A stretch of 64,000 nt of DNA from Mayamaea pseudoterrestris (Eukaryota > Bacillariophyta > Bacillariophyceae > Sellaphorales > Sellaphoraceae), in assembly GCA_027923505.1 (NCBI GenBank), contig BROI01000030.1:239050-303049 (forward strand), written 5' to 3'. The notes below the pieces were generated by a model that was given only the letters and a program-made list of their open reading frames with translations, did no database searches and was not told the DNA's origin. How positions within the stretch are numbered: position 1 is the stretch's first letter; every line of letters starts with the position of its first letter. This document shows positions 5,995 through 64,000 of this stretch, one piece after another. The position numbers and the translations under genes were made by a program.

Positions 5995-6058
5995 CAAAAC
6001 ACAGGTAGCTAACCGTCTTGTCGCGAGACGCAGGTCCAACTCAACTCAAGTATTGTCA

Positions 6059-37020: not shown

Positions 37021-39945
37021 CCTGAGACACTAGCCAGGCATACCATCTTGTAGCGCAGCCTGAATAATGATGTTGGCACCATTCTGGTGTAATTTGGGTG
37101 CCTACAGGGCCTGCTGTAGGGGCGTTTGAATGTCACGGCATCTGCAGGCTGAGACTGGTGACAAGTTGTCACCAATATCATTGCCATCCCCTGAGACACT
37201 AGCCAGGCATACCATCTTGTTGCGCAGCCTGAATAATGATGTTGGCACCATTCTGGTGTCATTTGGGTGTATACATGGCCTGCTGTAGGGGCGTTTGAAT
37301 GTCACGGCATCTGCAGGCTGAGACTGGTGACAAGTTGTCACCAATATCTTTGCCATCCCCTGAGACACTAGCCAGGCATACCATCTTGTAGCGCAGCCTG
37401 AATAATGATGTTGGCACCATTCTGGTGTCATTTGGGTGTATACATGGCCTGCTGTAGGGGCGTTTGAATGTCACGGCATCTGCAGGCTGAGACTGGTGAC
37501 AAGTTGTCACCAATATCATTGCCGTCCCCTGAGACACTAGCCAGGCATACCATCTTGTAGCGCAGCCTGAATAATGATGTTGGCACCATTCTGGTGTCAT
37601 TTTGTGTACCTACATGGCCTGCTGTAAGGGCGTTTGAATGTCACGGCATCTGCAGGCTGAGACTGGTGACAAGTTGTCACCAATATCATTGCTGTCCCCT
37701 GAGACACTAGCCAGGCATACCATCTTGTTGCGCAGCCTGAATAATGATGTTGGCACCATTCTGGTGTCATTTGGGTGTATACATGGCCTGCTGTAGGGGC
37801 GTTTGAATGTCACGGCATCTGCAGGCTGAGACTGGTGACAAGTTGTCACCAATATCATTGCCGTCCCCTGAGACACTAGCCAGGCATACCATCTTGTAGC
37901 GCAGCCTGAATAATGATGTTGGCACCATTCTGGTGTCATTTGGGTGTATACATGGCCTGCTGTAGGGGCATTTGAATGTCACGGCATCTGCAGGCTGAGA
38001 CTGGTGACAAGTTGTCACCAATATCATTGCCGTCCCCTGAGACACTAGCCAGGCATACCATCTTGTAGCGCAGCCTGAATAATGATGTTGGCACCATTCT
38101 GGTGTCATTTGGGTGTATACATGGCCTGCTGTAGGGGCGTTTGAATGTCACGGCATCTGCAGGCTGAGACTGGTGACAAGTTGTCACCAATATCATTGCC
38201 GTCCCCTGAGACACTAGCCAGGCATATCATCTTGTAGCGCAGCCTGAATAATGATGTTGGCACCATTCTGGTGTATTTTGGGCACCTACAGGGCTTGCTG
38301 TAGGGGCGTTTGAATGTCACGGCATCTGCAGGCTGAGACTGGTGACAAGTTGTCACCAATATCATTGCCATCCCCTGAGACACTAGCCAGGCATATCATC
38401 TTGTAGCGCAGCCTGAATAATGATGTTGGCACCATTCTGGTGTATTTTGGGCACCTACAGGGCCTGCTGTAGGGGCGTTTGAATGTCACGGCATCTGCAG
38501 GCTCAGACTGGTGACAAGTTGTCATCAATATCATTGCCGTCCCCTGAGACACTAGCCAGGCATACCATCTTGTTGCGCAGCCTGAATAATGATGTTGGCA
38601 CCATTCTGGTGTCATTTGGGTGTATACATGGCCTGCTGTAGGGGCGTTTGAATGTCACGGCATCTGCAGGCTGAGACTGGTGACAAGTTGTCACCAATAT
38701 CATTGCGGTCCCCTGAGACACTAGCCAGGCATACCATCTTGTTGCGCAGCCTGAATAAGGATGTTGGCACCATTCTGGTGTCATTTGGGTGTATACATGG
38801 CCTGCTGTAGAGGCGTTTGAATGTCACGGCATCTGCAGGCTGAGACTGGTGACAAGTTGTCACCAATATCATTGCCGTCCCCTGAGACACTAGCCAGGCA
38901 TACCATCTTGTAGCGCAGCCTGAATAATGATGTTGGCACCATTCTGGTGTCATCTGGGTGTATACATGGCCTGCTGTAGGGCACGGCATCTGCAGGCTGA
39001 GACTGGTGACAAGTTGTCACCAATATCATTACTGCCCCCTGAGACACTAGCCAGGCATACCTTCTTGTAGCGCAGCCTGAATAATGATGTTGGCACCATT
39101 CTGGTGTATTTGGTTGCACCTACAGGGCCTGCTGTAGGGGCGTTTGAATGTCACGGCATCTGCAGGCTGAGACTGGTGACAAGTTGTCACCAATATCATT
39201 GCCGTCCCCTGAGACACTAGCCAGGCATACCATCTTGTTGCGCAGCCTGAATAATGATGTTGGCACCATTCTGTGTCATTTGGGTGTATCTTACATGGCC
39301 TGCTGTAGGGGCGTTTGAATGTCACGGCATCTGCAGGCTGAGACTGGTGACAAGTTGTCACCAATATCATTGCCGTCCCCTGAGACACAAGCCAGGCATA
39401 TCATCTTGTAGCGCAGCCTGAATAATGATGTTGGCACCATTCTGGTGTCATCTGGGTGTATACATGGCCTGCTGTAGGGGCATTTGAATGCCAGGGCATC
39501 TGCAGGCTGAGACTGGTGACAAGTTGTCACCAATATCATTGCCGTCCCCTGAGACACTAGCCAGGCATACCATCTTGTAGCGCAGCCTGAATTATGATGT
39601 TGGCACCATTCTGGTGTCATTTGGGTGTATACATGGCCTGCTGTAGGGGCGGTTGAATGTCACGGCATCTGCAGGCTGAGACTGGTGACAAGTTGTCACC
39701 AATATCATTGCCGTCCCCTGAGACACTGAGCAGCATACCATCTTGTAGCGCAGCCTGAATAATGATGTTGGCACCATTCTGGTTGTCATTTGGGTACTCA
39801 CATGGCCTGCTGTAGGGGGGGCGTTTGAATGTCACGGCATCTGCGGGCTGGAGACTGGTGACAAGTTGTCACCAATATCATTGCCATCCCCTGAGACACT
39901 AGCCAGGTATATACCATCTTGTTGCGCAGCCTGAATAATGATGTT
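37021..39945 (-). repeat. 2,925-bp segment of satellite A3, duplication copy 2
   Basis: Second copy of 34096-37020, starting at the same base and ending at the same base. The only difference I noticed is T at 36566 versus C at 39491. After 39945 the sequence turns abruptly into decayed units ('aaggcacactgtgtc'). Confidence 0.92.
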
Positions 39946-42900
39946 AAGGCACACTGTGTCAGTGGTCTAGGCCTAGCTTGAATGTCATGGCATCTGCAGG
40001 CTGAGGACTGGTGACAAGTTGTCACCAATTCGTTCCCTCTGAGACACTAGCCACGCATACCATCTTGTAGCGCAGCCTGAATAATGATGTTGAGCACCAT
40101 TCTGGTGTCTTTTGGGTACTACATGGCCTGCTGTAGGGGCGCGTTTGAATGTCCACGGCATCTGAGGGCTGAGACTGTGTGTTGTCACCAATATCATTGC
40201 TGTCCCCTGAGACACTAGCCAGGCATACCATCTTGTAGCGCACTTTTTAATAATGATGTTGGCAGTTTTTCTGGTGCACGCGGGTGTATACACATGCTGC
40301 TGTAGGGAATAGCCACGGCATCTGCAGGCTGAGACTGGTGACAAGTTGTCACCAATATCATTGCCATCCCCTGAGACACTCAGCCAGGTATACCATCTTG
40401 TTGCGCAGCCCTGAATAATGATGTTGGCACCATTCTGGTGTATTTGGGGGTACTACATGGCCTGCTGTAGGGGCGTTTGAATGTCATGGCATCTGCAGGC
40501 TGAGACTGGTGACAAGTTGTCACCACATTCGTCGTCCCCTTAGTAGACACCCAGCCAGGCATACCAGCCCCAGCAGCAGCCTGAATAATGATGTTGTGCT
40601 GATTCTGGTGTCATTTGGGATTCAATGGCCTGCTGTAGGGGCGTTTGAATGTCACGGCATCTGAAGAGCTGAGACTGGTGACAAGTTGTCACGCAGTATC
40701 ATTGCTATCCCCTGAGACACTAGCCAGGCATACCATCTTGCCAGCAGCCCTGAATAATGATGTTGGCACCATTCTGGTGTCATTTGGTGCTTACATGGGC
40801 CTGGCTGTAGGGGCGTTTGAATGTCACGGCATCTGCAGGCTCAGACTGGTGACAAGTTGTCATCAATATCATTGCCGTCCCCTGAGACACTAGCCAGGCA
40901 CTTTACCATCTTGTACTCAACCTGAATAATGATGTTGCCACCATTCTGGTGTCATTTGGGTGTATACATGGCCTGCTGTAGGGCGTTTGAATGTCACGCC
41001 GGCATCTGCAGGCTAAGACTGGTGACAAGTTGTCACCAATCAGTACCAAGTCCCCTTGAGACACTAGCCAGGCATACCAACTTGTAGCGCAGCCTGAATA
41101 ATGATGTTGTCACCATTCTGGTCAGTTCATTTTGGTCATGGCCTTCTGTAGGGGCGTTTGAATGTCATTGCATCTGCGGGCTGAGGACTAGTGACAAGTT
41201 GTCACCCAATAGCCATTCCCGTCCCCTGAGACACTAGGCCAGGCATACCCATCTTGTGGCACAGCCTGAATAATGATGTTGGCACTATTCTGGTGTCATT
41301 TTGGTGCACCTACAGGGCCTGTACTGTAGGGCGTTTGAATGTCTCGGCATCCGCAGGCTGAGACTGGTGACAAGTTGTCACCAATATCATTGCCCGTCCC
41401 CTGAGACACTATCCAGGCATACCATCTTGTTGCTCAGCCTGAATAATGATGTTGGCACCATTCTGGTGTCTTTTGGTTGTGTATACATGGCCTGCTGTAG
41501 GGGCGTTTGAATGTCACGGCATCTGCAGGCTGAGACTGGTGACAAGTTGTCACCAATATCCTTGCCGTCCCCTGAGACACTAGCCCAGGCATACCATCTT
41601 GTTGCGCAACCTGAAAAAAAATGTTGGCACCATTCTGGTGTCATTTGGGTGTATACATGGCCTGCTGTAGGGCGTTGAATGTCACACCGGCATCTGCGAG
41701 GCTGGGAGACTGGTGACAAGTTGTCACCAATATCATTGCCCCCCTGAGACACTAGCCAGGCATACCATCTTGTAGCGCAGCCGAAATAATGATGTTGGCA
41801 CCATTCTGGTGTATTTTGGTGTACCCACATGGCCTGCTGTAGGGGCGTTTGAATGTCCACGGCATCTGCAGGCTGAGAACTTGCGATGTTGTCACCAATA
41901 TCATTACCATCCCCTGAGACACTGACAGGCATGCTCATTCTTTAGCGAGCCTGAATAATGATGTTGGCACCATTCTGGTGTCATTTGGGTATCATACTGG
42001 CCTGCTGTAGGGGCGTTTGGAATGTCACCGGCATCTGTGAGGCTGAGACTGGTGACAAGTTGTCACCAATATCATGCCATCCCCTGAGACACTAGCCAGG
42101 CATACCATCTTGTACCGCAGCCGAATAATGATGTTGGCACCATTCTGGTGTCATTTGGGGTGTATACCATGGCCTGCTGTAGGGGCGTTTGCAATGTCCA
42201 CCGCATCTGCAGGCTGAGACTGGTGACAAGTTGTCACCACTCATCATTGCCGTCCCCTGAGACACTAGCCAGGCATACCATCTTGTAGCGCAACCTGAAT
42301 AATGATGTTGGCACCGACTCTGGTGTATTTGGGGCACCTACAGGGCTTGCTGTAGAGGTGGTTTTGAATAGTCACGGCATCTGCAGGCTGAGACTGGTGA
42401 CAAGTTGTCACCAATATCATTGCTATCCCCTGAGACACTAGCCAGGCATAACATCTTGTAGCGCAGCTTTAATAATGATGTTGGCAATATTCTGGTGCGT
42501 CATTTGGGGTATACCATGGCCTGCTCTGTAGGGGGCGTTTGAATGTCACGGCATCTGCGGGGCTGAGACTGGCTGATCAAGTTGTCACCAATATCATTGC
42601 CGTCCCCTGAGACACTAGCCAGGTTTACCATCTTGTGGCGCAGCCTGCATAATGATGTTGGCACCATTCTGGTGTCATTTGGGTGACCTACAGGCTTGCT
42701 ACGGTAGGGGCATTTGAATGTCACGGCATCTGCAGGCTCAGACTGGTGACAAGTTGTCACCAATCTCATAACTGTCCCCTGAGACACTAGCCAGGCATAC
42801 CATCTTGTAGCGCAGCTTGAATAATGCATGTTAAGCACCCATTTTCTGGTGTCATTTGGGTGTATACACATGGCCTGCTGTAGGGGCGTTTGAATGTCAT

Positions 42901-44378
42901 GGCATCTGCGGGCTGAGACTGGTGACAAGTTGCCAATATCATTGCCTCCCCTGAGACACTAGCCAGGTATACCATCTTGTAGGAATAAAATAGCGCAGCC
43001 TGAATAATGATGTTGGCACAATTCTGGTGTCATTTGGTGTATACATGGCCTGCTGTAGGGGCGTTTGAATGTCATGGCATCTGCAGGCTGAGACTGGTGA
43101 CAAGTTGTCACCAATATCATTGCCGTCCCCTTAGACACTAGCCACGCATACCATCTTGTTGAGCAGCCTGAATAATGATGTTGACACCATTCTGGTGTCA
43201 TTTGGGTGTATTCATGGCCTGTTTTAAGGGGCGTTTGAATGTCCACGGCATCTGCAGGCTGAGACTGGTGACAAGTTGTCACTAATATCATTGCTATCCC
43301 CTGAGACACTAGCCCAGGCATATCATCTTGTTGCGCAGCCTGCATAATGATGTTAGCACCATTCTGGTGTCATTTGAGTGTCTAATGGCCTGCTGTAAGG
43401 GCGTTTGAATGTCACGGCATCTCAAGGGCTGAGACTGGTGACAAGTTGTCGCCAATATCATTGCCGTCCCCTGAGACACTGTTGCAGGACCATCTTGTTT
43501 GCAACCTGAATAATGATGTTGGCACCATTCTGGTGTCATTTAAGTACATGGCCTGCTGTAGGGGCATTTGAACAATGTCCGACAGCATCTGCACTGAGAC
43601 TGGTGACAAGTTGTCACCAATATCATTACCGTCCCCTGAGACACTAATGCCAGGCATACCAATCTTGTAGCGCAGCCTGAATAATGATGTTGGCAATATT
43701 CTGGTGTATTTTGGGCACCTACAGGGCCTGCTGTAAGGGCGTTTGAATGTCACGGCATCTGCAGGCTGAGACTGGTGACAAGTTGTCACCAATATCATTG
43801 CCGTCCCCTGAGACACTAGCCAGGCATACCATCTTGTTGCGCAGCCTGAATAATGATATTGGCACCATTCTGGTTCATTTGGGGTTTATAACATGGCCTG
43901 CTGTGGGGCGTTTGAATGTCACGGCATCTGCAGGCTGAGACTGCACGTTAAAGTTGTCACCAATATCATTGCTATCCACCTGAGACACTAGCCAGGCATA
44001 CCATCTGTAGGTAGCCTGAATAATGATGTTGGCACCATTCTGGTATCTTTGGTTGTATGCCACCTGCTGTAGGGGTGCACGGCGTTTTGAATGGACCGTC
44101 TATACGGCGAGGGTAACAAGTTGTCACCAAAAATATTGTCGTAGACACAGCATACCCGACCTCAGGCGCAGCCGACAAAATAATGATGTTGGCACCATTC
44201 CGGTGTATTTGGGACCACACACAGGGCTTCTGGCTGTAGCGGCGTTTGAATGTCACGGCATCTGCAGGCTGAGACTGGTGACAAGTTGTCACCAAATATT
44301 GCCATGCCCAGACACCAGCCAGGCCTACCATCTGTAGCTGCAGCCGATAATGTGGTGTCTTGGGTTACATGGCCTGTT
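39946..44378 (-). repeat. Satellite A3 array, decayed right flank
   Basis: About 26 eroded monomers with frequent small indels. Some carry short inserts, such as 'aggaataaaat' near 42980. Units around 43900-44340 are the most degraded. The dyad is still present in most units. The array ends at 'ttacatggcct', followed by satellite B. Confidence 0.9.
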
Positions 44379-47300
44379 TTGGTGTGGGTTGTTGGGTGAT
44401 CAGGGGATGGGGCATTGTAGTGGTGATTCCATAATTTTAAGGGTGTTGGCCACACATTTTGCAGATAATTGTAGGCCTCCCAGGCAGTCGTTTGCACCCT
44501 TTCAGCCCATCCTCATGTCAATGGCACACCTGGACATGTTTGCCTGACTCATTGGGTTGTTAGGTGGCCATGGCATGGGTCAGCCCATCCTCATGTCCAA
44601 TGGCACACTGGACTTGTGTTTCTGACTCATTGGGTTGTTGGGTGTAGGGCATGGGGCATTGCAGTGTTATGATTCCATAATTTGGGAGTGTTGGCCACAC
44701 CCATCTTGTAGACCATTCCCATGCTGTAGGCCTAGGCGATCCGTTTTGTACCATGTTAGACCATCCTCATGTCAATGGCACACCCTGGACATGTTTTGCA
44801 TGACTCATTGGGTTGTTGGGTGATCAGGGACGAGGAGCATTGTAGTGGTATGATTCCATAATTTGCGGTGTTGGCCACACCCATTTTGCAGACGGTTTAG
44901 GCCTGCAGGCAGTCAGTTTTGCACCATTTCAGCCCATCCTCATGTCAATGGCACCCTGGACATGTTTTGCCTGACTCATTGGGTTTGTTTGGGTGGCCAG
45001 GGCATGGGGGCATTGTAGTGGTATGATTCCATAATTTGGGGTGTTTTACATACATCTTGTAGACCATTCCATGCTGTAGGCCTCCAGGCAGTCCGTTTTG
45101 TACCATGTCAGACCATCCTCATGTCAATAGCACACCCTGGACATGTTTTGCATAACTCATTGGGTATTTGGGTGATCAGGGGACGGGGCATTGTAGTGGT
45201 ATGATTCCCTGAATTTCTTGATTGTTGGCCACACCATTTTGCAGATCGGTGTAGGCCTCCAGGCAGTCCGTTTCTCATTTCAGCCCATCCTCATGTCAAT
45301 GGCACACACCGATATTTTGCCTGCTCATTGGGTTGTTGGGTGTGGGGCATGTAGGGCATTGTAGTGGTATGATTCCATAATTTGGGGTGTTGGCCACACC
45401 CATCTTGTAGACCATTCCATGCTGTAGGCCTCCAGGCAGTCCGTTTGTACCATGTCAGACCATCCTCGCCACAATGGCACACCCTGGACATGGTTTGCAT
45501 GACTCATTGGGTTGGTGGGTGATCGGGGGCGGGGGCATTGTAGTGGTATGATTCCATAATTTGAGGTGTTAGCCACACCATGGTGTAGGCGCCCGGGCGG
45601 TCCGTTTTGCACCATTTGGCCATCCTCATGTCAATGGCACACCCTGGACATGTTTTGCCTGACTCATTGGGTTGTTGGGTGGCCAGGGCATGGGAGCATG
45701 ATGATTATAATTTAGGGTGTTAGCCATACCATTCCCTTAGCCTAGGCAGTCCGTTTTGTACCATGTCAGACCATCCTCATGTCAATGGCACACCCTGGAC
45801 ATAGTTTGCATGACTCATTGGGTTGTTGGGTGATCGGGGGCCCAGGGCATTGTAGTGGTATGATTCCATAATTTAACGGTGTTGGCCACCCATTTTGCAG
45901 ATGGTGTAGGCCTCCAGGCGATCCGTTTGCACCATTTCTGACCATCCTCATGTCAATGGCACACCCTGGACATGTTTGCCCTGACTTCATTGGGTTGTTG
46001 TGGCCAGGGAACGCCAGGGCATTGTAGTGGTATGATTCCATAATTTGGGGTGTTAGCCACACTTACATCTTGTAGACCATTCCATGCTGTAGGCCTAGGC
46101 AGTCCGTTTTGTACCATGTCAGACCATCCTCATGTCAATGGCCCCCTGGACATGTTTTGCATGACTCATTGGGTTGTTGGGTGATCAGGGACGGGAGCAT
46201 TGTAGTGGTATGATTCCATAATTTGCGGTGTTGGCCACACCCATTTGCAGATGGTGCAAACTAGGCAATCCATTTTTTCAGCCCATCCTCATGTCAATGG
46301 CACACCCTGGACATGTTTGCCTGTTGGGTTGTTGTGGCCAGGGCATACAGGGCATTGTAGTGGTATGATTCCATAATTTGAGGTGTGGCCACACCCATCT
46401 TGCCATTCCATACTAGCAAGGCACCCAGGCAGTCCGTTTGTAATGTCAGACCATCCTCATGTCAATGGCACACCCTGGACATGTTTTGCATGACTCTATT
46501 TGGGTTGTTGGGTGATCAGGGACGGGGCATTGTAGTGGTATGATTCCAGGAATGGTCTTTTATGGTGTGAGCCTCCAAACAGTCCGTTTTTGTTCAGCCC
46601 ATCCTCATGTCAATGGCACACCCTGGACATGTTTGCTAACTCAGGTTGTTGTGCTGGGGCATGGGAACGCATTATGGTAGAGTATGATTATAATTTGGGT
46701 GTTGGCCACACCCATCTTGTAGATATTTCCATAGGCCTAGGCAGTCCGTTTTTTGTACCATGTCAGACCATCCTCATGTCAATAGCACCCTGGACATGTT
46801 TTTGTATGACTCATTGGGTTGTTGGGTGATCAGGAATGGGGCATTGTAGTGGTATGATTCCATAATTTGCGGTGTTGGCCCACACCCACGATGGTTGGCC
46901 TCCCGGGCGATCCGTTTGCACCATTTCAGTCATGCTCTGGCACACCCTGGACATGTTTTGCTCTGTGGGGCAAGGGCATAAGGGCATTGTAGTGGTATGA
47001 TTCCATAATTTGTGTTGGCCACAATCTTGTAGGCTCCATTCCCATGCTGGCTTAAGGCCCTCAGAGGCAGTCCGTTTTGTACCATGCACTCATGTCAATG
47101 GCACACCCTGGACATGTTTGCATGACTCATTGGGTTGTTGGGTGATCAGGGGACGGGGCATTGTATTGATATGATTCCTGCATTGGGTGTTGGCCCACAC
47201 ACCCATTTTGCAGAATGGTAGCAGGCCTCCAGGCAGTCCGTTGCACCATTTCAGCATCCTCATATAGACACACCAGGTGTGTTTGCTGACTTCAGCTGGG

Positions 47301-50300
47301 TTTTTGGGTGGCCAGGGCATGGGCATTGTAGTGATATGATTCCATAATTTGGGGTGTTGGCCACACCCATCTTGTAGACACCATTCCATGCTGTAGGCCT
47401 CCCAGGCAGTCAACGTTTTTTGTACCATGTAGACCACTCTCTCATGTCAATGGCACACCACAATTGTATTTTGCGTGACTCATTGGGTTGTTGGTGATCA
47501 GGGGCGAGGGCATTGTGGTGGTTCCCATGAAATTTGGGGTGTTGGCCACACCAATTTGCAGAAAGATAATTGTGGCCTCCACAGGCAGTCCGTTTGTACC
47601 ATTTCAGCCCATCCTCATGTCAATAGCACATCCTGGACATGTTTAGCTATTCATTGGGTTGTTGGGTGGCCAGGGCATGGGAGCTTTGTAGTGGTAGCTG
47701 ATTCCATAATTTGGTTGGCCACACCCATCTTGTAGACCATTCCATGCTGCTGAGGCCTCAGGCAGTCCGTTTTGTACCATGTCAGACCATCCTCATGTCA
47801 ATCAATGGCACACCCCTGAACATGTTTTGCATGACTCATTGGAGTATTTGGGTGATCAGCGGCATTGTAATGAGTATGATTATAATTTGGGGTGTTGGCC
47901 AATCAGATGGTGTAGGCCTCTAGGCAGTCCGTTTGCAACATTTCAGCCCATCACTCATGTCAGCAGCACACCCCTGGAAATGTTTGCCCTGACTCATTGG
48001 GTTGTTGGGTGGCCAGGGCATAGGGCATTGGTAGTATGATTCCATAATTTGGGGTGGCCACACCCATCTTGCCAGAAAATTCAGTACTGTGAAGCGCATA
48101 GGCAGTCCGTTTGTACCATGTCAGACCATCCTCATCAATGGCACACCCTGGACATGTTTTGCATGACTCATTGGGTTGTTGGGTGATCAGGGGCCAGGCA
48201 TTGTAGTGGTATGAATCCATAATTTGTGAGGTGTTAGCCACACATTTGCAGATAGTGTAGGCCTCCACGACAGTCCGTTTGCACCATTCGGCCATCCTCA
48301 TGTCAGTAACACACCCTGGACATATTTTACGCTTCATGGACAGAATTTGCGGTGTGGCCAGGGTATGGGAGGCATTACCGTGATATAGTTTAGTGGTGGG
48401 ACACCATATAGTCATTCCCATACTGCCCGAGCCTATCCCACCTCGTTTTTTTTCACTCCAGGCCCATGTGCACTCACTTTTTGTCAGCTGGCACACCCTG
48501 GACATGTTTTGCATGACTCATTGGGTTGTTGGGTGATCAGGGACGGGGCATTGTAGTGGTATGATTCCATAATTTGGGGTGTTGGCCCCCCTGAATTGTG
48601 AGCCTCCAGGCAGTCAAGGACTTTTTCTTTTTTCATTTTCAGCCCATCCTCATGGCATCCAATGGCACACCTGGACACATGTTTGCCTGGCTCATTGGGT
48701 TGTTGGGTGGCCAGGGCATGGGGCATTGTAGTGGTATGATTCCATAATTTGGGGTGTTTGTATCCACACCCATCTTGTAGACCATTCATGCTCGCCAGGC
48801 CTCCAGGGCGTCTACCGTTTTGTACCATGTCAGACCATCCTCAAAGCTATCCAATGGCACACCCTGGACATGTTTTGCATGACTCATTAAGGTTGTTAGG
48901 GTGATCAGGGGCGGGGCATTATTTGTAGTATGATTCCACTTAATTTGGGGTGTTGGCCACACCCATTTTGCTAGACATTCAGGCCTCCGTGTCCATCCTC
49001 TCAATGTCAACTGGCACACCCTGGACATGTTTTGCCTCTCTTTATTGGGTTGTTGGTGGCGAGGGCATGGGGCATTGTAGTGGTATGGAGTCCATAGAGC
49101 GAAGAAGAGTGTTGGGGTGTTGGCCACCACGTTTTTGTATTTCATGCTGTAGGCCAGGCGTCGTCATTTGTACCATAGTCAGACCATCCTCATGTCAGTG
49201 GCACACCCACACGGACATGTGTTGCATGAAACTCATTGGGTTGTTGGGTGATCCCGGGACGGGGCATTGGTGTGGTTGTTCCATAATTTGGGGTGTTGTT
49301 CACACCTTTTGCAGATGGTGTAGGCCTCCGGGCAGATCGTTTGCACCTCAGCCCATCCTCCATGTCACCGGCACACCCTGGACATGTTTGGCCCGCAGCT
49401 CATTGGGTTGTTGGGGCCCAGGGCGCGGGGCATTGCTGGTGGTATGATTCCACAATTGTTGGGGGTGTTGGCCACCCCATCTTGTACGGCGACCATTCCA
49501 TGCTGGCGCTCCAGGCGGTCCTGTTTCTGTCTGTCCAGAACTAGCCCTCGTCAATGTTTCACCCTGGACATGTTTTGCAGTGACTCATTGGGTTGTTGGG
49601 TGATCAGGGGACGGGGCATTTGCTGGTGGTATGATTCCACTGAACAGGTGTTGAGAAGCCACACCCCCATTTTGGGTAAGGGTAAGCCTCCAGGCAGTCG
49701 TTTTGCCCTGCCCATCCCTGCTTCGTGACCCCGGACATGTTTTGCCTTTCCGCTCATTGGGTTGTTGGGGGCGCGGGGCATGGGGCATGTCGGTTGTTCC
49801 TATTTGGGGTGTCCACACCCATCTGTGAACCATTCCATGCTGTAGGCCTCAGGCGGTCGTTTTGCCTCCAGCTGTCAGCCATCCTCCCCTGGGCCTGGAC
49901 ATTTTGCATGACTCATTGGGGTTTGGGAGGGCATTGTGGTGGTATGATTCCATAATTTGGGTGTTGCATTTAGCCCTTTGCATGCTTGTGTCCGGGCTCA
50001 GATGATCAGTTTTGCACCAGTTCAGCCCTCTCTGGGCACACCCTGGACTATTTTGCCTGACTCCGTGGGTTGTTGGGTGTCAGGGCCGAGCGGGTCATTT
50101 GGTGTGTTCCATAATTTGGGGGTGTTGGCCACCATGCGCCGGCGATGGTCCTTTGCTTTTCAGCAGTCCGTTTTGCACCATTCACCCATCTCTCCTTGTC
50201 GTCCCCTGTTCTTTTTGGGTTTGGGTGGCCGGTGAGGCATTGTGTGGTATGATTCAATGGTTGGGGTGTTGGCCCACCCATCTTGTAAGGCTCCAGGCAG

Positions 50301-52020
50301 TCGTTCACCATTTCAGCCCATCCTCGTCTGGCCACCCTGGACATGTTTTGCCTGACTCATTGGTTGTTGGGTGGCGGGGGCGGGGGCAGTGTGTGGTATG
50401 ATTCCGCCAATTTGGCGTGTTGGCACCCCATTTTGCGCCTTGTGTAGGCCTCCAGGCGGTCCCGTTTTTGCACCATGTCGGCCCATCTCATGTCATGGCA
50501 CACCCTGGACCTGTTTTGCCTGACTCATTGGGTTGTTGGGTGTCAGGGGACGGGGCATTGTGATGTTATGATTTCCATATTGGGGGCCCTGCCACTCATT
50601 GGGTTAGGTGATCAGGGGCGGGGCATTATGGTGGTATGATTCCGCAATTTGCGGTGTTGGCCCGGCCTCCAGGCGATCCGTTTTGCACCATTTCCCATCC
50701 TCATGTCAATGGCACACCCTGGACATGTTTTGCCTGACTCATTGGGTTGTTGGGTGGCCAGAGGCATGGGGCATTGTGTGGTATGATTCCATAATTTGGG
50801 GTGGTTGCCACACCCGTTTTGTGGCTTCATGCTGTAAGGCTCCAGGCAGTCCGTTTTTGCACCATGTCAGCCCATCCTCATGTCATATGGCACCCTGGAC
50901 ATGTTTTGCGACTCATTGGGTTGTTGGGTGATCAGGCGGGGCGATTGTGTGGTATGATTCCATAATTTGGGGTGTTGGCCCCACCCATTTTACGAATGGT
51001 GTAGGCCTCGCAGGCGATCCGTTTTGCACCATTCTCATCCTCATGTCATGGCACACCCTGGACGTGTTTTCCTGACTCATTGGGTTGTTGGGTGGCCAGG
51101 GCATGGGGCATTAGTGAGTATGATTCCATAATTGGGGTGTTGGCCACACCCATCTTGTAGACTCCATTCCATGCTGTAGGCCTCCAGGTAGTCCGTTTTG
51201 CCATGTCAGACCATCCTCATGTGTGCACCCTGGACATGTTTTGCCTTGACTCATTGGGTTGTTGGGTGATCCAGGGGATGGGGGCATTTGTAGTGGTATG
51301 ATTCCATAATTTGCGGTCTTGGCCGCACCCATTTTGCAATGGTGGTGTAGGCCTCCAGTCGAGTCCCGTTTTGCCCATTCAAGCCCATCCTCATGTCAAT
51401 GGCACACCCTGGACATGTTTTGCCTGACTCATTGGGTTGTTGGGTGGCCAGGGCAGAGCATTGTGTGGTATGATTATAATTTGGGAGTGTTAGCCACACC
51501 CATCTTGTAGACCATTCCATGCTGTAGCCTTTAGGCAGTCCGTTTTGTACCATGTCAGACCATCCTCATCCCAATGGCACACCCTGGACATGTTTGACTC
51601 ATTGGGTTGTTGGGTGATCAGGGGGCGGGGTATTGTAGTGGTATGATTCCATAATTTGGGGTGGTGGCCACACCCATTTTGCAGATAGTGAGGCCTCAAT
51701 CAGTCGTTTTTGCACCATTTCAGCCCATCCTCATGTCAATGGCACACCCTGGACATGTTTTGCCTGACTCATTGGAGTTGTTGGGGCCAGGGCATGGGGG
51801 CATTGTAGTGGTATGATTCCATAATTTAGGGTGTTGTGGTATACCCATCTTGTAGACCCTTCCATGCTGTAGACTAGGTTTTGTACCATGTCAGCCATCC
51901 TCATGTCAATGGCACACACTGGACATATATATTGCATGACTCATTGGAGTTGTTGGGTGATCAGGGGCGGGGCATTGTAGTGGTATGATTCCATAATTTG
52001 GGGTGTTGGCCACACCCATT
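44379..52020 (+). repeat. Satellite B array 2, heavily decayed
   Basis: About 21-22 dimer lengths of B, same orientation as array 1. Erosion is strong throughout, worst at 46240-46700, 48300-48480 and 49200-50600. In that last stretch units also gain G/C and lose length. The region 48310-48480 has almost no satellite words and no recognisable gene. From about 50650 the copies are clearer again. The array ends at 'cacaccca..ttt' (about 52020), where satellite A starts. Confidence 0.9.
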
Positions 52021-55000
52021 TAGGAGACTGGTGACAAGTTGTCACCAATATCCCGTCCTTAAACACTAGCCGCATACCAGCTTGTAGCGCAGCCTGAATA
52101 ATGATGTTGGCACCAATCTGGTGTCATTTGGGATATTCATGGCCTGTGTAAAGGCGTTTGAATGTCACGCGGCATCTGAAGGTGATGATTGGTGACAAGT
52201 TGTCACCATGTCATTGCTGTCCCCTGAGACATTAGCCAGGCATACCATCTTGTAGCGCAGCCTGAATAATGATGTTGGCACCATTCTGGTGTTTTGCGCC
52301 TACAGGGCCTGATGTTGGGTGATCACGGCATCTGCGGGCTGAGACTGGTGACAAGTTGTCATCAATATCATTGCCGTCCCCTGAGACACGAGCCAGGCAT
52401 ACCAGCTTGTAGCGCAGCCTGAATAATGATGTTGGCACCATTCTGGTGTCATTTGGGTATATTCATGGCCTGCTGTAAAGGCGTTTGAATGTCACGGCAT
52501 CTGAAGGCTGAGACTGGTGACAAGTTGTCACCAATGTCATTGCTGTCCCCTGAGACACTAGCCAGGCATACCATCTTGTAGCGCAGCTTGAATAATGATG
52601 TTGGCAATTTTCTGGTGACATTTGGGTATACACATGGCCTGCTGTAGGGGCGTTTGAATGCCACGGCATCTGCAGGCTGAGACTGGTGACAAGTTGTCAC
52701 CAATATCATTGCCATCCCCTGGGACACTAGCCAGGTATACCATCTTGTTGCGCAGCCTGGATAATGATGTTGGCACAATTCTGGTGTCATTTGGGTGTAT
52801 ACATGGCCTGCTGTAGGGGTGTTTGAATGTCATGGCATCTGCAGGCTGAGACTGGTGACAAGTTGTCACCAATATCATTGCCGTCCCCTGAGACACAAGC
52901 CAGGCATACCATCTTGTTGCTCAGCCTGAATAATGATGTTGGCACCATTCTGGTGTCATTTGGGTGTATACATGGCCTGCTGTAAGGGCGTTTGAATGTC
53001 ACGGCATCTGCAGGCTGAGACTGGTGACAAGTTGTCACCAATATCATTGCCGTCCCCTGAGACACTAGCCAGGCATACCATCTTGTAGCGCAGCCTGAAT
53101 AATGATGTTGGCACCATTCTGGTGTCATTTGGGTATATTCATGGCCTGCTGTAAAGGCGTTTGAATGTCACGGCATCTGAAGGCTGAGACTGGTGACAAG
53201 TTGTCACCAATGTCATTGCTGTCCCCTGAGACACTAGCCAGGCATACCATCTTGTAGCGCAGCCTGAATAATGATGATGGCACCAATCTGGTGTCATTTG
53301 GGTATATTCATGGCCTGCTGTAGGGGCGTTTGAATGTCACAGCGCATCCCGGGCTGAGACTGGTGACAAGTTGTCACCAATATCATTGCTGTCCCCTGAG
53401 ACAATAGCTAGGCATACCATCTTGTAGCGCAGCCTGAATAATGATGTTGCCACCATTCCAGTGTCAATTGGGTGTATACATAGCCTGCTGTAGGGGCATT
53501 TGAATGTCACGGCATCTGCAGGCTGAGACTGGTGACAAGTTGTCACCAATATCATTACCGTCCCCTGAGACACTAGCCAGGCATACCATCTTGTTGTGCA
53601 GCCTGAATAATGATGTTGGCAATATTCTGGTGTATTTTGGGCACCTACAGGGCCTGCTGTAGGGGCGTTTGAATGTCACGGCATCTGCAGGCTGAGACTG
53701 GTGACAAGTTGTCACCAATATCATTGCCGTCCCCTGAGACACTAGCCAGGCATACCATCTTGTTGCTCAGCCTGAATAATGATGTTGGCACCATTCTGGT
53801 GTCATTTGGGTGTATACATGGCCTGCTGTAGGGGCGTTTGAATGTCACGGCTTTTGCAGGCTGAGACTGGTGACAAGTTGTCACCAATATCATTGCCATC
53901 CCCTGAGACACTAGCCAGGTTAACCATCTTGTTGCGCAGCCTGAATAATGATGTTGGCACCATTCTGGTGTCATTTGGGTGTATACATGGCCTGTTGTAG
54001 GGGCGTTTGAATGTCATGGCATCTGCGGGCTGAGATTGGTGACAAGTTGTCACCAATATCATTGCCATCCCCTGAGACACTAACCAGGCATACCATCTTG
54101 TAGCGCAGCCTGAGTAATGATGTTGGCACCATTCTGGTGTCATTTGGTTGTACATGGCCTGCTGTAGGGGCGTTTTGAATGTCACGGCATCTGCAGGCTG
54201 AGACTGGTGACAAGTTGTCACCAATATCATTACCGTCCCCTGAGACACTAGCCAGGCATACCATCTTGTAGCGCAGCCTGAATACTGATGTTGGCAATAT
54301 TCTGGTGTATTTTGGGCACCTACAGGGCCTGCTGTAGGGGCGTTTGAATGTCACGGCATCTGCAGGCTGAGACTGGTGACAAGTTGTCACCAATATCATT
54401 GCCGTCCCCTGAGACACTAGCCAGGCATACCATCGTGTTGCTCAGCCTGAATAATGACGTTGGCACCATTCTGGTGTCATTTTGGGTGTATACATGCCTG
54501 CTGTAAGGCGTTTGAATGTCATGGCATCTGTAGGCTGACACTGGTGACAAGTTGTCACCAATATTATTACCGTCCCCTGAGACACTAGCCAGGCATACCA
54601 TCTTGTTGAGCAGCCTGAATAATGATGTTGGCACCATTCTGATGTCATTTGGGTGTATTAAATGCCTGCTGTAGGGGCGTTTGAATGTCACGGCATCTGC
54701 AGGCTGAGACTGGTGACAAGTTGTCACCAATATCATTGCCGTCTCCTGAGACACCAGCCAAGCCTACCATCTTGTAGCGCAGCTTGTTAATAATGTTGGA
54801 CACCAGTCTGGTGTGATTTGGGCACCCTACAGGGCTTGCTGTAGGTGCGTTTAATGTCCGCATCTGCGGGCTGAGACTGGTGACAAGTTGTCACCAAATA
54901 CATTGCCATGCCCTGAGACACCAGTCACCAAACCAACTTGTAGCGCAGCCACAATAATAATGGTGGCACCATTGCGGGTATTTTTGGGCACCTACAGGGT

Positions 55001-55160
55001 CCTGTGGGCTTGAATGTCAGTCATCTGCGGGCGGCGACGGTGACAAGTTGTCACCAATATCATTGCCATGCCCTGAGACACCAGCCAAGCCTACCATCTT
55101 GTAGCGCAGCCTGAATAATGATGTTAGCACCATTCTGGTGTCATTTGGGTATATACATGG
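52021..55160 (-). repeat. Satellite A3 block, left arm of a large inverted repeat
   Basis: About 18-19 monomers in minus orientation. The order of rare variants is the mirror image of the A block at about 60330-63470: positions p and 115492-p correspond. Examples are 'gcaccaatctggtg' near 53281 with 'cagattggtgcc' near 62201, 'atactgatgttggc' near 54283 with 'gccaacatcagtat' near 61197, and the 'gctgtaaaggcg' with 'cgcctttacagc' variants. The most B-proximal ~350 bases are more eroded than their partner. Confidence 0.92.
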
Positions 55161-55184
55161 CCTAGTTAGGGTTAGGTTGGGTTG
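55161..55184. other. A/B junction with telomere-like filler
   Basis: Between the last A word ('catggcct') and the first B word ('gggttgttgggtgatcag') lies 'agttagggttaggtt', which contains TTAGGGTTAGG, just under two telomere-type repeats. It may be chance or end-joining filler. Confidence 0.6.
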
Positions 55185-58100
55185 TTGGGTGATCAGGGGA
55201 CGGGACATTGTAGTGGTATGATTCCTTAATTTGGGGTGTTGGCCACACCCGTTTTGCAGATGGTGTAGGCCTTGCAGGCAGTCCGTTTTGCACCATTTCA
55301 GCCCATCCTCATGTCAATGGCACACCCTGGACATGTTTTGCCTGACTCATTGGGTTGTTGGGTGGCCAGGGCATGGGGCATTGTAGTGGTATGATTCCAT
55401 AATTTGGGGTGTTGGCCATACCCATCTTGTAGACCATTCCATGCTGTAGGCCTCCAGGCAGTCCGTTTTGCACCATTTCTGCCCATCCTCATGTCAATGG
55501 CACACCCTGGACATGTTTTGCCTGACTCATTGGGTTGTTGGGTGGCCAGAGCATGGGGCATTGTAGTGGTATGATTCCATAATTTGGGGTGTTGGCCACA
55601 CCCATCTTGTAGACCATTCCATGCTGTAGGCCACCAGGCAGTCCGTTTTGTACCATGTCAGACCATCCTCGTGTCAGTGGCACACCCTGGACATGTTTTG
55701 CATGACTCATTGGGTTGTTGGGTGATCAGGGAACGGGGCATTGTAGTGGTATGATTCCATAATTTGGGGTGTTGGCCACACCCGTTTTGCAGATGGTGTA
55801 GGCCTTCCAGTCCGTTTTGCACCATTTCAGCCCATCCTCCTGTCAGTGGCACACCCTGGACATGTTTTGCCTGACTCATTGGGTTGTTGGGTGGCCAGGG
55901 CATGGGGCATTGTAGTGGTATGATTCCATAATTTGGGGTGTTGGCCACACCCATCTTGTGGACCATTCCATGCTGTAGGCCTCCAGGCAGTCCGTTTGCA
56001 CCATGTCAGACCATCCTCATGTCATTGGCACACCCTGGACATGTTTTGCATGACTCGTTGGGTTGTTGGGTGATCAGGGATGGGGCATTGTAGTGGTATG
56101 ATTCCATAATTTGGGGTGTTGGCCACACCCATTTTGCATGGAATGGTGTAGGCCTCCAGGCAGTCCGTTTTGCACCATTTCAGCCCATCCTCATGTCAAC
56201 GGCACACCCTGGACATGTTTTGCTGCTCATTGGGTTGTTGGGTGGCCAGGGATGGGGCATTGTAGTGGTATGATTCCATAATTTGCGGTGTTGGCCACAC
56301 CCATTTTGCAGATGGTGTAGGCATCCAGGCAGTCCATTTTGCACCATTTCAGCCCATCCTCATGTCAATGGCACACCCTGGACATGTTTTGCATGACTCA
56401 TTGGGTTGTTGGGTGGCCAGGGCATGGGGCATTGTAGTGGTATGATTCCATAATTTGGGGTGTTGGCCACACCCATCTTGTAGAAAAATTCCATGCTGTA
56501 AGCGTCTAGGCCGTCACGTTTGTACCATGTCAGACCATCCTCATGTCAATGGCACACCCTGGACATGTTTTGCATGACTCATTGGGTTGTTGGGTGATCA
56601 GGGGATGGGGCATTGTAGTGGTATGATTCCATATTTTGGGGTGTTGGCCACACCCATCTTGTAGACCATTCCATGCTGTAGGCCTCCAGGCAGTCCGTTT
56701 TGTACCATGTCAGACCATCCTCATGTCAATGGCACACCCTGGACATGTTTTGCATGACTCATTGGGTTGTTGGGTGATCAGGGGACGGGGCATTGTAGTG
56801 GTATGATTCCATAATTTGCGGTGTTGGCCACACCCATCTTGTAGACCATTCCATGCTGTAGGTCTCCAGGCAGTCCGTTTTGTACCATGTCAGACCATCC
56901 TCATGTCCATGGCACACCCTGGACATGTTTTGCCTGACTCATTGGGTTGTTGGGTGGCCAGGGCATGGGGCATTGTAGTGGTATGAGTCCATAATTTGGG
57001 GTGTTGGCCACACCCATTTTGCAGATGGTGTAGGCCTCCAGGCAGTCCGTTTTGCACCATGTCAGCCCATCCTCATGTCCATGGCACACCCTGGACATGT
57101 TTTGCCTGACTCATTGGGTTGTTGGGTGGCCAGGGCATGGGGCATTGTAGTGGTATGATTCCATAATTTGGGGTGTTGGCCACACCCATCTTGTAGACCA
57201 TTCCATGCTGTAGGCCTCCAGGCAGTCCGTTTTGTACCATGTCAGACCATCCATCCTCATGTCAATGGCACACCCTGGACATGTTTTGCATGACTCATTG
57301 GGTTGTTGGGTGATCAGGGGACGGGGCATTGTAGTGGTATGATTCCATAATTTGCGGTGTTGGCCACACCCATTTTGCAGATGGTGTAGGCCTCCAGGCA
57401 GTCCGTTTTGCACCATTTCAGCCCATTCTCATGTCAATGGCACACCCTGGACATGTTTTGCCTGACTCATTGGGTTGTTGGGTGGCCAGGGCATGGGGCA
57501 TTGTAGTGGTATGATTCCATAATTTGGGGTGTTGGCCACACCCATGTTGTAGACCATTCCATGCTGTAGGCCTCCAGGCAGTCCGTGTTGTACCATGTCA
57601 GACCATCCTCATGTCAATGGCACACCCTGGACATGTTTTGCATGACTCATTGGGTTGTTGGGTGATCAGGGGACGGGGCATTGTAGTGGTATGATTCCAT
57701 AATTTGCGGTGTTGGCCACACCAATTTTGCAGATGGTGTAGGCCTCCAGGCAGTCCGTTTTGCACCATTTCAGCCCATCCTCATGTCAATGGCACACCCT
57801 GGACATGTTTTGCCTGACTCATTGGGTTGTTGGGTGGCTAGGGCATGGGGCATTGTAGTGGTATGATTCCATAATTTGGGGTGGCTACACCAATCTTGTA
57901 GACCATTCCATGCTGTAGGCCTCCAGGCAGTCCGTTTTGTACCATGCCAGACCATCCTCATGTCAATGGCACACCCTGGACATGTTTTGCATGACTCATT
58001 GGGTTGTTGGGTGATCAAAGGACGGGCATTGTAGTGGTATGATTCCATAATTTGGGGTGTTGGCCACACCCATTTGCAGATGGTGTAGGCCTCCAGGCAG

Positions 58101-60195
58101 TCCGTTTTGCACCATTTCAGCCCATCCTCATGTCAATGGCACACCCTGGACATGTTTTGCCTGACTCATTGGGTTGTTGGGTGGCCAGGGCATGGGGCAT
58201 TGTAGTGGTATGATTCCATAATTTTGGGGTGTTGGCCACACCCATCTTGTAGACCATTCCATGCTGTAGGCCTCCAGGCAGTCCGTTTTGTACCATGTCA
58301 GACCATCCTCATGTCAATGGCACACCTGGACATGTTTTGCATGACTCATTGGGTTGTTGGGTGATCAGGGGACGGGGCATTGTAGTGGTATGATTCCATA
58401 ATTTGCGGTGTTGGCCACACCCATTTTGCAGATGGTGTAGGCCTCCAGGCAGTCCGTTTTTGCACCATTTCAGCCCATCCTCATGTCAATGGCACACCCT
58501 GGACATGTTTTGCCTGACTCATTGGGTTGTTGGGTGGCCAGGGCATGGGGCATTGTAGTGGTATGATTCCATAATTTGGGGTGTTGGCCACACCCATCTT
58601 GTAGACCATTCCATGCTGTAGGCCTCCAGGCAGTCCGTTTTGTACCATGTCAGACCATCCTCATGTCAATGGCACACCCTGGACATGTTTTGCATGACTC
58701 ATTGGGTTGTTGGGTGATCAGGGGACGGGGCATTGTAGTGGTATGATTCCATAATTTGCGGTGTTGGCCACACCCATTTTGCAGATGGTGTAGGCCTCCA
58801 GGCAGTCCGTTTTTGCACCATTTCAGCCCATCCTCATGTCAATGGCACACCCTGGACATGTTTTGCCTGACTCATTGGGTTGTTGGGTGGCCAGGGCATG
58901 GGGCATTGTAGTGGTATGATTCCATAATTTGGGGTGTTGGCCACACCCATCTTGTAGACCATTCCATGCTGTAGGCCTCCAGGCAGTCCGTTTTGTACCA
59001 TGTCAGACCATCCTCATGTCAATGGCACACCCTGGACATGTTTTGCATGACTCATTGGGTTGTTGGGTGATCACGGGACGGGGCATTGTAGTGGTATGAT
59101 TCCATAATTTGCGGTGTTGGCCACACCCATTTTCCAGATGGTGTAGGCCTCCAGGCAGTCCGTTTTGCACCATGTCAGACCATCCTCATGTCAATGGCAC
59201 ACCCTGGACATGTTTTGCCTGACTCATTGGGTTGTTGGGTGGCCAGGGCATGGGGCATTGTAGTGGTATGATTCCATAATTTGGGGTGTTGGCCACACCC
59301 ATCTTGTAGACCATTCCATGCTGTAGGCCTCCAGGCAGTCCGTTTTGTACCATGTCAGACCATCCTCATGTCAATGTCACACCCTGGACATGTTTTGCAT
59401 GACTCATTGGGTTGTTGGGTGATCAGGGGACGGGGCATTGTAGTGGTATGATTCCATAATTTGTGGTGTTGGCCACACCCATTTTGCAGATGGTGTAGGC
59501 CTCCAGGCAGTCCGTTTTGCACCATTTCAGCCCATCCTCATGTCAATGGCACACCCTGGACATGTTTTGCCTGACTCATTGGGTTGTTGGGTGGCCAGGG
59601 CATGGGCATTGTAGTGGTATGATTCCATAATTTGGGGTGTTGGCCACACCCATCTTGTAGACCATTCCATGCTGTAGGCCTCCAGTTAGTCCGTTTTGTA
59701 CCATGTCAGACCATCCTCATGTCAATGGCACACCCTGGACATGTTTTGCATGACTCATTGGGTTGTTGGGTGATCAGGGGACGGGGCATTGTAGTGGTAT
59801 GATTCCATAATTTGTGGTGTTGGCCACACCCATTTTGCAGATGGTGTAGGCCTCCAGGCAGTCCGTTTTGCACCATTTCATGCCATCCTCATGTCAATGG
59901 CACACCCTGGACATGTTTTGCCTGACTCATTGGGTTGTTGGGTGGCCAGGGCATGGGGCATTGTAGTGGTATGATTCCATAATTTGGGGTGTTGGCCACA
60001 CCCATCTTGTAGACCATTCCATGCTGTAGGCCTCCAGGCAGGCCGTTTTGTACCATGTCAGACCATCCTCATGTCAATGGCACACCCTGGACATGTTTGC
60101 ATGACTCATTGGGTTGTTGGGTGATCAGGGGACGGGGCATTGTAGTGGTATGATTCCATAATTTGCGGTGTTGGCCCCCACCCTTTTCGATGGTG
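55180..60195 (+). repeat. Satellite B array 3
   Basis: About 14 dimer lengths of B, mostly uniform. The dimer alternation is broken in places. Near 55470 a monomer has a type-1 head and type-2 tail. Near 56290 a type-1 head joins a type-2 middle. At 56600-56900 type-1 middles follow type-2 heads, with three type-1 middles in succession. From about 57000 regular alternation returns. It is the spacer between the two inverted A arms. Its right end fuses with satellite A through the shared word 'gatggtg' near 60190. Confidence 0.94.
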
Positions 60196-63100
60196 CCAAT
60201 AAGAATTCACATCATTATTCAGGCTGCGCTACAAGATGGTATGCCTGGCTAGTCTCAGGGCCATTGGTGACAACTTGTCTCTCTTCCGCAGATGCCGTGA
60301 CATTCAAACGCCCCTACAGCAGGCCATGTATACACCCAAATGACACCAGAATGGTGCTAACATCATTATTCAGGCTGCGCTACAAGATGGTAGGCTAGGC
60401 TGGTGTCTCAGGGCATGGCAATGTATTTGGTGACAACTTGTCACCAGTCTCAGCCCGCAGATGACGTGACATTCAAACGCCCCTACAGGAAGCCCTGTAG
60501 GTGCCCAAAATACACCCGAATGGTGCCACCATTATTGTGGCTGCGCTACAAGTTGGTTTGCTTGACTGGTGTCTCAGGGCATGGCAATGTATTTGGTGAC
60601 AACTTGTCACCAGTCTCAGCCCGCAGATGTCGTGACATTAAACGCACCTACAGCAAGCCCTGTAGGTGCCCAAATTACACCAGACTGGTGCCAACATTAT
60701 TATTCAAGCTGCGCTACAAGATGGTAGGCTTGGCTGGTGTCTCAGGAGACGGCAATGATATTGGTGACAACTTGTCACCAGTCTCAGCCTGCAGATGCCG
60801 TGACATTCAAACGCCCCTACAGCAGGCATTTAATACACCCAAATGACATCAGAATGGTGCCAACATCATTATTCAGGCTGCTCAACAAGATGGTATGCCT
60901 GGCTAGTGTCTCAGGGGACGGTAATAATATTGGTGACAACTTGTCACCAGTGTCAGCCTACAGATGCCATGACATTCAAACGCCCTTACAGCAGGCCATG
61001 TATACACCCAAATGACACCAGAATGGTGCCAACATCATTATTCAGGCTGAGCAACACGATGGTATGCCTGGCTAGTGTCTCAGGGGACGGCAATGATATT
61101 GGTGACAACTTGTCACCAGTCTCAGCCTGCAGATGCCGTGACATTCAAACGCCCCTACAGCAGGCCCTGTAGGTGCCCAAAATACACCAGAATATTGCCA
61201 ACATCAGTATTCAGGCTGCGCTACAAGATGGTATGCCTGGCTAGTGTCTCAGGGGACGGTAATGATATTGGTGACAACTTGTCACCAGTCTCAGCCTGCA
61301 GATGCCGTGACATACAAACGCCCCTACAGCAGGCCATGTATACAACCAAATGACACCAGAATGGTGCCAACATCATTACTCAGGCTGCACAACAAGATGG
61401 TATGCCTGGCTAGTGTCTCAGGGGACGGCAATGATATTGGTGACAACTTGTCACCAGTCTCAGTCTGCAGATGCCATGACATTCAAACGCCCCTACATCA
61501 GGCCATGTATACACCCAAATGACACCAGAATGGTGCCAACATCATTATTCAGGCTGCGCAACAAGATGGTATGCCTGGCTAGTGTCTCAGGGGACGGCAA
61601 TGATATTGGTGACAACTTGTCACCAGTCTCAGCCTGCAAATGCCGTGACATTCAAACGCCCTTACAGCAGGCCATGTATACACCCAAATGACACCAGAAT
61701 GGTGCCAACATCATTATTCAGGCTGAGCAACAAGATGGTATGCCTGGCTAGTGTCTCAGGGGACGGCAATGATATTGGTGACAACTTGTCACCAGTCTCA
61801 GCCTGCAGATGCCGTGACATTCAAACGCCCCTACAGCAGGCCCTGTAGGTGCCCAAAATACACCAGAATATTGCCAACATCATTATTCAGGCTGCGCTAC
61901 AAGATGGTATGCCTGGCTAGTGTCTCAGGGGACGGTAATGATATTGGTGACAACTTGTCACCAGTCTCAGCCTGCAGATGCCGTGACATTCAAATGCCCC
62001 TACAGCAGGCTATGTATACACCCAAATGACACTGGAATGGTGGCAACATCATTATTCAGGCTGCGCTACAAGATGGTATGCCTAGCTATTGTCTCAGGGG
62101 ACAGCAATGATATTGGTGACAACTTGTCACCAGTCTCAGCCCGCGGATGCTGTGACATTCAAACGCCCCTACAGCAGGCCATGAATATACCCAAATGACA
62201 CCAGATTGGTGCCATCATCATTATTCAGGCTGCGCTACAAGATGGTATGCCTGGCTAGTGTCTCAGGGGACAGCAATGACATTGGTGACAACTTGTCACC
62301 AGTCTCAGCCTTCAGATGCCGTGACATTCAAACGCCTTTACAGCAGGCCATGAATATACCCAAATGACACCAGAATGGTGCCAACATCATTATTCAGGCT
62401 GCGCTACAAGATGGTATACCTGGCTAGTGTCTCAGGGGACGGCAATGATATTGGTGACAACTTGTCACCAGTCTCAGCCTGCAGATGCCGTGACATTCAA
62501 ACGCCCCTACAGCAGGCCATGTATACACCCAAATGACACCAGAATGGTGCCAACATCATTATTCAGGCTGCGCAACAAGATGGTATGCCTGGCTAGTGTC
62601 TCAGGGGACAGCAATGATATTGGTGACAACTTGTCACCAGTCTCAGCCTGCAGATGCCGTGACATTCAAACGCCCCTACAGCAGGCCATGTATACACCCA
62701 AATGACACCAGAATGGTGCCAACATCATTATCCAGGCTGCGCAACAAGATGGTATGCCTGGCTAGTGTCTCAGGGGATGGCAATGATATTGGTGACAACT
62801 TGTCACCAGTCTCAGCCTGCAGATGCCGTGACATTCAAACGCCCCTACAGCAGGCCATGTGTATACCCAAATGTCACCAGAATGGTGCCAACATCATTAT
62901 TCAAGCTGCGCTACAAGATGGTATGCCTGGCTAGTGTCTCAGGGGACAGCAATGACATTGGTGACAACTTGTCACCAGTCTCAGCCTTCAGATGCCGTGA
63001 CATTCAAACGCCTTTACAGCAGGCCATGAATATACCCAAATGACACCAGAATGGTGCCAACATCATTATTCAGGCTGCGCTACAAGCTGGTATGCCTGGC

Positions 63101-64000
63101 TAGTGTCTCAGGGGACGGCAATGATATTGGTGACAACTTGTCACCAGTCTCAGCCTGCAGATGCCGTGACATTCAAACGCCCTTACAGCAGGCTCTGTAT
63201 ACACCCAAATGACACCAGATTGGTGCCATCATCATTATTCAGGCTGCGCTACAAGATGGTATGCCTGGCTAGTGTCTCAGGGGACAGCAATGACATTGGT
63301 GACAACTTGTCACCAGTCTCAGCCTGCAGATGCCGTGACATTCAAACGCCTTTACAGCAGGCCATGAATATACCCAAATGACACCAGAATGGTGCCAACA
63401 TCATTATTCAGGCTGCGCTACAAGATGGTATGCGTGGCTAGTGTCTCAGGGGACAGCAATGACATTGGTGACAACTTGTCACCAGTCTCAGCCCGCTGGG
63501 ATGCCGTTTTGACATTCAAACGCCCCTACAGCAGGCCATGTATAACCCAAATGCACCAGAATGTTGCCACACCATTAGGCTGCGCTACAAGTTGGTATGC
63601 GTGGCTAGTGTCTCAGGGATGGCAATGATATTGGTGACAACTTGTCACCAGTCTCAGCCGAATGTCGTGACAAAGCCCTACAGCAGGCCCTGGTACACCA
63701 AGAGTGCCACATCATTATTCAGGCGCGCTACAAGCCATGCTACGCCGGCAGGTCACAGGGGTCGGCAAGATATTGGTGACAACTTGTCACCAGGTGTCAG
63801 CCTGCGAGATGAGTGACATTCAAATGCCAATACAGCGAGGCCTACATCTCAAAATGGGCGACACCAGAATGGTGACATCATTATCCAGGCCGCGCTACAA
63901 GATGATGCCTGGCTAGGTGTCGGGGAGGAGTGGTGACAACTTGTCACCAGTCTCAGCCTGCAGATGCCGTGGGCATTCAAACGCCCCTACAGCAGGCCAT
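60196..64000 (+). repeat. Satellite A3 block, right arm of the inverted repeat and beyond
   Basis: About 22 monomers in plus orientation. The stretch from about 60330 to 63470 mirrors 52021-55160. The first unit (60196-60300) is incomplete, with a damaged dyad ('ggtgacaacttgtctc'). Units from 60700 to 63450 are uniform. From 63480 to the window edge they decay again. It continues off the right edge. Confidence 0.93.

Follow-up and report, generated by a model that had tools for sequence, protein, structure and literature searches.

Inverted satellite arms at a contig end of the diatom Mayamaea pseudoterrestris: a probable duplication among copied, telomere-linked satellite modules

Introduction

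Near the end of a contig of the diatom Mayamaea pseudoterrestris, two blocks of one tandem repeat (satellite A) face each other in opposite orientation across about 5 kb of another (satellite B). A layout of this kind raises the question of whether the locus has been shaped by a function or left behind by copying. In Candida tropicalis, inverted repeats enclose a non-repetitive centre, bound by kinetochore proteins, at each of the seven centromeres (PMC4741521), and an initial annotation of the diatom locus proposed either a functional core resembling the regional centromeres of some fungi or a fold-back replication event. The centromeres of the diatom Phaeodactylum tricornutum have been characterized as short, simple and rich in AT (PMC7082073) and were located through their low GC content (PMC9266582). 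Here, we ask whether the two arms are copies of a single block, how the block came to be inverted, and whether a function is needed to account for it.

Results

The window, by which we mean the whole 64,000-nucleotide stretch analysed, spans positions 239050-303049 of contig BROI01000030.1 (hereafter C30) in a genome of 30,627,229 bases and 41 contigs. Because C30 is 303,049 bp long, the end of the window is also the end of the contig. Coordinates are those of the window unless preceded by a contig name.

Satellite A has a unit of 169 bp, and satellite B one of 352 bp, made up of two halves of 172 and 180 bp. Exact words of A occur 6561 times in the genome (3189 forward, 3372 reverse), which at 169 bp each corresponds to at least 1.1 Mb of satellite A, while B has 1022 such words (634 and 388). 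The A words listed first all lie on contig C1, at several separate sites, and other searches located further A and B sites on the same contig. Both repeats are thus arranged as satellite DNA is, with similar units following one another head to tail in long arrays at several loci. A search of the literature, which was text-based and could not be queried by sequence, listed no title or abstract opening that described these satellites in a diatom, and the main text of a diatom re-sequencing paper, as available to us, contains neither 'satellite' nor 'tandem repeat' (PMC8147415). In keeping with a diatom, the chlorophyll-binding family PF00504 has 53 matches in the genome, and one of these proteins has fucoxanthin chlorophyll proteins as its best PDB match (E 3.3e-84); neither of the two light-harvesting proteins compared with the PDB had an identical entry among the alignments listed. 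Other frames, judged by eye, resemble a zeaxanthin epoxidase with a plastid presequence and parts of retroelements. A different repeat occupies C30:228478-237631, where identical frames begin 820 bp apart, at 234920 and 235740. No match to an RNA family was found in the window at the gathering threshold.

The left arm (52024-55163, forward strand) is a block of satellite A decayed at both edges, and the right arm (60321-63489, reverse strand) is an A block whose inner end carries no telomere repeat; beyond it, the right A array continues in a more divergent form to the contig end (63490-64000, reverse strand). The spacer between them (55178-60189, forward strand, 29 monomer hits) is a satellite B array running in one direction throughout, as first described. 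When exact 25-mers of the window are matched to their reverse complements, the most frequent coordinate sum is 115492 (929 matches; 115493 has 511), which bears out the initial claim that the two A blocks correspond at a constant sum. Aligned globally, 52021-55160 and the reverse-complemented 60330-63471 agree at 3040 of 3105 aligned columns, with 94-100% identity per 100 columns in the middle and poorer agreement over the outer 300-400 columns at each end; the local alignment of the arms reached 96.2% over 3182 columns. Long inverted repeats of this similarity around a 5-kb core have the geometry of an inverted-repeat regional centromere. The inverted pair is a real pattern in the sequence.

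The arms could nevertheless have been no closer to each other than to any other A block, which would have spoken against their being copies of one. Among 1034 alignments of at least 900 bp (self-matches included) over 283.5 kb of compared sequence, the top non-self match of the left arm was the right arm, at 96.2% versus 94.9% for C30:205384-208558 and 93.1% for C30:209104-212278, the remaining matches among those listed lying at about 92.4%. When the initial 1001 bases of the left arm were searched against the whole genome, the right arm again came first after the self-match, at 94% with the next place at 93%, among the 10 that were scored of 504 candidates.

The second-ranking match, at C30:205387-208558, represents the same A block a third time. 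To score derived sites, we aligned the two arms with two stretches from the C30:205k array and a single stretch from each of C8 and C39, and polarized those sites at which C8, C39 and the second C30 stretch concur. Thirty-nine derived sites are common to both arms and the third copy; a further 17 are shared by the arms alone, compared with seven shared by the right arm and the third copy and three by the left arm and the third copy. Rare variants in the same order, which had been noted by inspection, are thus present in both arms. Private sites number 59 in the left arm, 25 in the third copy and six in the right arm. Over the central 2350 columns, identity is 98.4% between the arms, 96.6% between the left arm and the third copy, and 97.9% between the right arm and the third copy. 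Over the full length, the right arm is closer to the third copy (97.7% over 3169 columns, with 3 gap columns) than to the left arm (96.9%, with 49 gap columns), because the edges of the left arm have decayed. As 14 of the 17 arm-only sites fall within columns 404-917, the arms are clearly sisters over that stretch and less clearly so outside it. Match rank and shared derived sites make each arm the best or near-best relative of the other and support the initial annotation in holding them to be inverted copies of one A block. An origin as a fold-back read lacking a spacer was rejected, the arms being 5 kb apart and differing by 37 substitutions in the 2339 central columns compared (98.42%).

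At its inner edge, the left arm is separated from satellite B by an 11-bp telomere repeat, TTAGGGTTAGG (55166-55176, forward strand). TTAGGG caps contig C11, so that the telomere repeat of the organism here lies inside a contig, as an interstitial telomeric sequence. The joint that contains it, CATGGCCTAGTTAGGGTTAGG (55156-55176, forward strand), was searched for in the genome with one mismatch allowed and returned five matches, all exact: the window, C10:502253, C30:205373 (on the other strand), C10:82055 and C30:53404. Its surroundings were read at the first three of these, and the last two were located only. The first 2 kb of the B spacer (55178-57171, forward strand) match C30:203374-205368, in inverted orientation, at 98.8% over 1999 columns, and the next-best place at 94.5%. 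Since a single inverted copy at C30:203374-208558 covers all three elements, the left arm, the telomere repeat and the start of B form one module, whose inverted copy lies about 88 kb from that of the window, centre to centre, on the same contig. Another type of joint, from B into forward-oriented A, occurs exactly six times in the genome; the recurrence of exact joints at five and six loci indicates that joints were copied together with their surroundings.

The other end of the spacer is different. There, the A sequence of the right arm runs one decayed monomer further inwards and meets B at the six bases ATGGTG (60190-60195), with a short insertion beyond them, so that the B-to-A joint as a whole occupies 60190-60320 (reverse strand). 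The same six bases occur in B, in A and at the joint; a match this short can stem from chance or from a chimeric read.

Further satellite blocks lie to the left of the arms. At 20947-44382, a second forward-oriented B block (26810-32526) has inverted A flanks (20947-26096 on the reverse strand and 32543-44382 on the forward strand), and just outside the left arm, a decayed B array (44385-52044, forward strand; best matches about 82%) has forward-oriented A on both sides. At position 20947, a forward A array (6008-20947) and a reverse one (20947-26096) meet head-on without a spacer. A strong higher-order periodicity of 2925 bp marks the forward A array within 33000-42000, and the window contains 2877 exact 25-mers repeated at that lag. 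An exact run of four TTAGGG units is found at two places only in the genome. One is the start of C11, where the telomere (11-166) has satellite B directly beneath it (170-2219), no other contig end having as many as four exact telomere repeats; C9 and C30 likewise start in B. The other is C30:219806-219829, where the four units lie between a short reverse A piece and decayed forward B, an arrangement that differs from the copied joint.

The consensus of satellite A contains a perfect 19-bp palindrome with 9-bp arms, TGGTGACAAGTTGTCACCA, which occurs in the A arrays throughout the window and first appears in the left arm at 52029-52047. Of 891 monomers at least 110 bp long, 788 carry its inner 17 bases unchanged. 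In the set of 105 full-length monomers with less than 93% identity, 77-82% keep the best 17-bp windows, which begin at positions 15 to 27, without any change, as against 11% for the median window. When each of 15 blocks was compared with its own majority sequence, the change rate was 0.0139 at positions 20-42 and 0.0450 elsewhere; the box changed more slowly in 15 of 15 blocks, and in 13 of them its rate was one of the ten smallest across 147 windows. No part of satellite A changes more slowly than the palindrome except the very ends of the monomer, where we attribute the low rates to the way in which hits were cut. In this respect, satellite A resembles a satellite with a CENP-B-like box, whose short motif is likewise better conserved than the remainder of the unit. 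In satellite B (415 monomers), the change rate drops to 0.017 in the best 17-bp stretch, compared with 0.086 over the full monomer, and the hairpin of B has arms of only 6 bp; several edges of B arrays, as noticed post hoc, lie near this hairpin.

Discussion

We consider the structure to be, on balance, a non-coding inverted duplication among telomere-linked satellites, set in a large and dispersed satellite landscape. According to this scenario, a break in an A array would have been capped or filled with two to three TTAGGG units and joined to B, an event of which the present joint would be the trace. The resulting A-telomere-B module then spread to several sites across two contigs, with one inverted copy lying some 88 kb from that of the window; the five exact joints and the identity of the B stretch show this copying, the direction of which we infer. 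Finally, an inverted copy of that A block may have become attached to the B array of the window copy at the six bases common to both, giving rise to the inverted arms that are now observed; template switching or end joining could have produced this joint. Later, the arrays would have decayed and homogenized, as is usual for satellites. The fold-back or duplication type of origin that was initially offered as one of two possibilities is thus favoured by the rank of the best match, the shared derived sites and the six-base joint, and a function is unnecessary to explain the structure.

Two rivals concern the joining of the right arm to the rest. The right arm may be genuinely genomic and yet have been connected to B by a chimeric read or a wrong assembly path near the contig end. 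It makes up the final 3.8 kb of C30, the terminal 0.5 kb of which is more divergent, and the joint from B into reverse A was found at one place, while the usual B-to-A joint elsewhere enters forward A. Yet the right arm differs from every A block compared, and does so by substitutions rather than by the indels expected of unpolished copies; since its differences from the third copy are substitutions too, it is a separate sequence and no re-reading of that copy. We also dismissed nanopore homopolymer noise as the source of the decay, because single-base deletions in decayed monomers (80-90% identity) fall in homopolymers of at least three bases in 14 of 201 cases, against 10% of consensus bases, and so show no excess, an argument that bears on homopolymer errors alone. 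Taken together, these points make an assembly artefact unlikely, and the inverted pair is probably, not certainly, a real chromosome structure. Still less probable is an inversion of an interval of the contig by recombination between oppositely oriented A blocks, which would have set the arms against each other. Inverted blocks of the same A family do lie about 88 kb apart on C30, and A words are nearly equal in the two orientations genome-wide, but an exchange between A blocks would yield A-A crossovers and preserve the A-B joints, whereas the joint observed is a new one, of B with A.

The remaining alternatives assign the locus a role. As a regional centromere of the Candida tropicalis type, it would consist of inverted repeats around a B core bound by CENP-A. 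The inverted arms of about 3.2 kb around a 5-kb core, the recurrence of inverted A flanks at the second B block and the conserved palindrome of satellite A are in keeping with this, and only the geometry, present twice in the window, and the palindrome speak for any role. Against it, the core is not unique sequence but a tandem B array, the first 2 kb of which duplicate C30:203374-205368 as part of the copied module. Moreover, five of the 11 B blocks listed in the 283.5 kb compared have A within 1.5 kb on both sides, and the flanks of three of these (C30:203k, C30:283k and C10:502k) run in the same direction, with C30:266-272k and the block studied here being inverted; in the part of the genome's arrays that was read, with two inverted blocks of five and several A and B sites on the single contig C1, the arrangement does not recur about once per chromosome. 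Satellite B also lies beneath a telomere on C11, and GC content between 52021 and 63471 is not low, its minimum being 48% per 500 bp and 43% per 100 bp, which is unlike the low-GC centromeres of the P. tricornutum type. The functional B core put forward in the initial annotation is thus unsupported, though not disproved, and we regard a regional centromere as very improbable. Rather less remote, yet still doubtful, is the idea that satellite A serves as the platform of a chromosome-wide chromatin system, with arrays along the chromosomes in both orientations and TGGTGACAAGTTGTCACCA as a selected protein-binding box. Conservation of the palindrome may have a mutational cause, and its reading as a binding box is a guess from sequence conservation. 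If that reading were true, it would reveal a box-dependent system of satellite heterochromatin or centromeres where the papers cited here describe only short AT-rich centromeres.

Returning to the duplication that we favour, it illustrates how the copying of modules, marked here by a telomere scar, can passively leave behind an inverted satellite arrangement that looks striking in raw sequence. The palindrome is the more valuable lead, as it would make the satellite-chromatin organization of a diatom approachable through one short oligonucleotide.

The CENP-B box of primate alpha satellite is a motif on the 17-bp scale within a unit of about 170 bp. The diatom palindrome is likewise a short motif kept within a satellite unit of about 170 bp, but it is a different sequence, is perfectly palindromic and is known from sequence alone. 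Compared with other described systems, the locus shares with the centromeres of C. tropicalis inverted repeats and a core of a few kb each, the repeats of that yeast being similar within and between chromosomes (PMC4741521); unlike them, it has a tandem satellite for a core and belongs to a set of blocks of which three in five are not inverted, all of this read from DNA sequence. P. tricornutum belongs to the same algal group, and its centromeres (PMC7082073, PMC9266582) differ from the present structure, in which GC content is at least 48% in every 500-bp stretch. The short TTAGGG run within a contig, at a breakpoint joint, is like the interstitial telomeric sequences described in PMC6410037, from which it differs in lying between two satellites and in having been copied to five loci. 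Finally, PpSat1 and PpSat2 of Phytophthora parasitica (PMC7290008) are, going by their description, also two satellite families of a stramenopile that differ from each other in arrangement.
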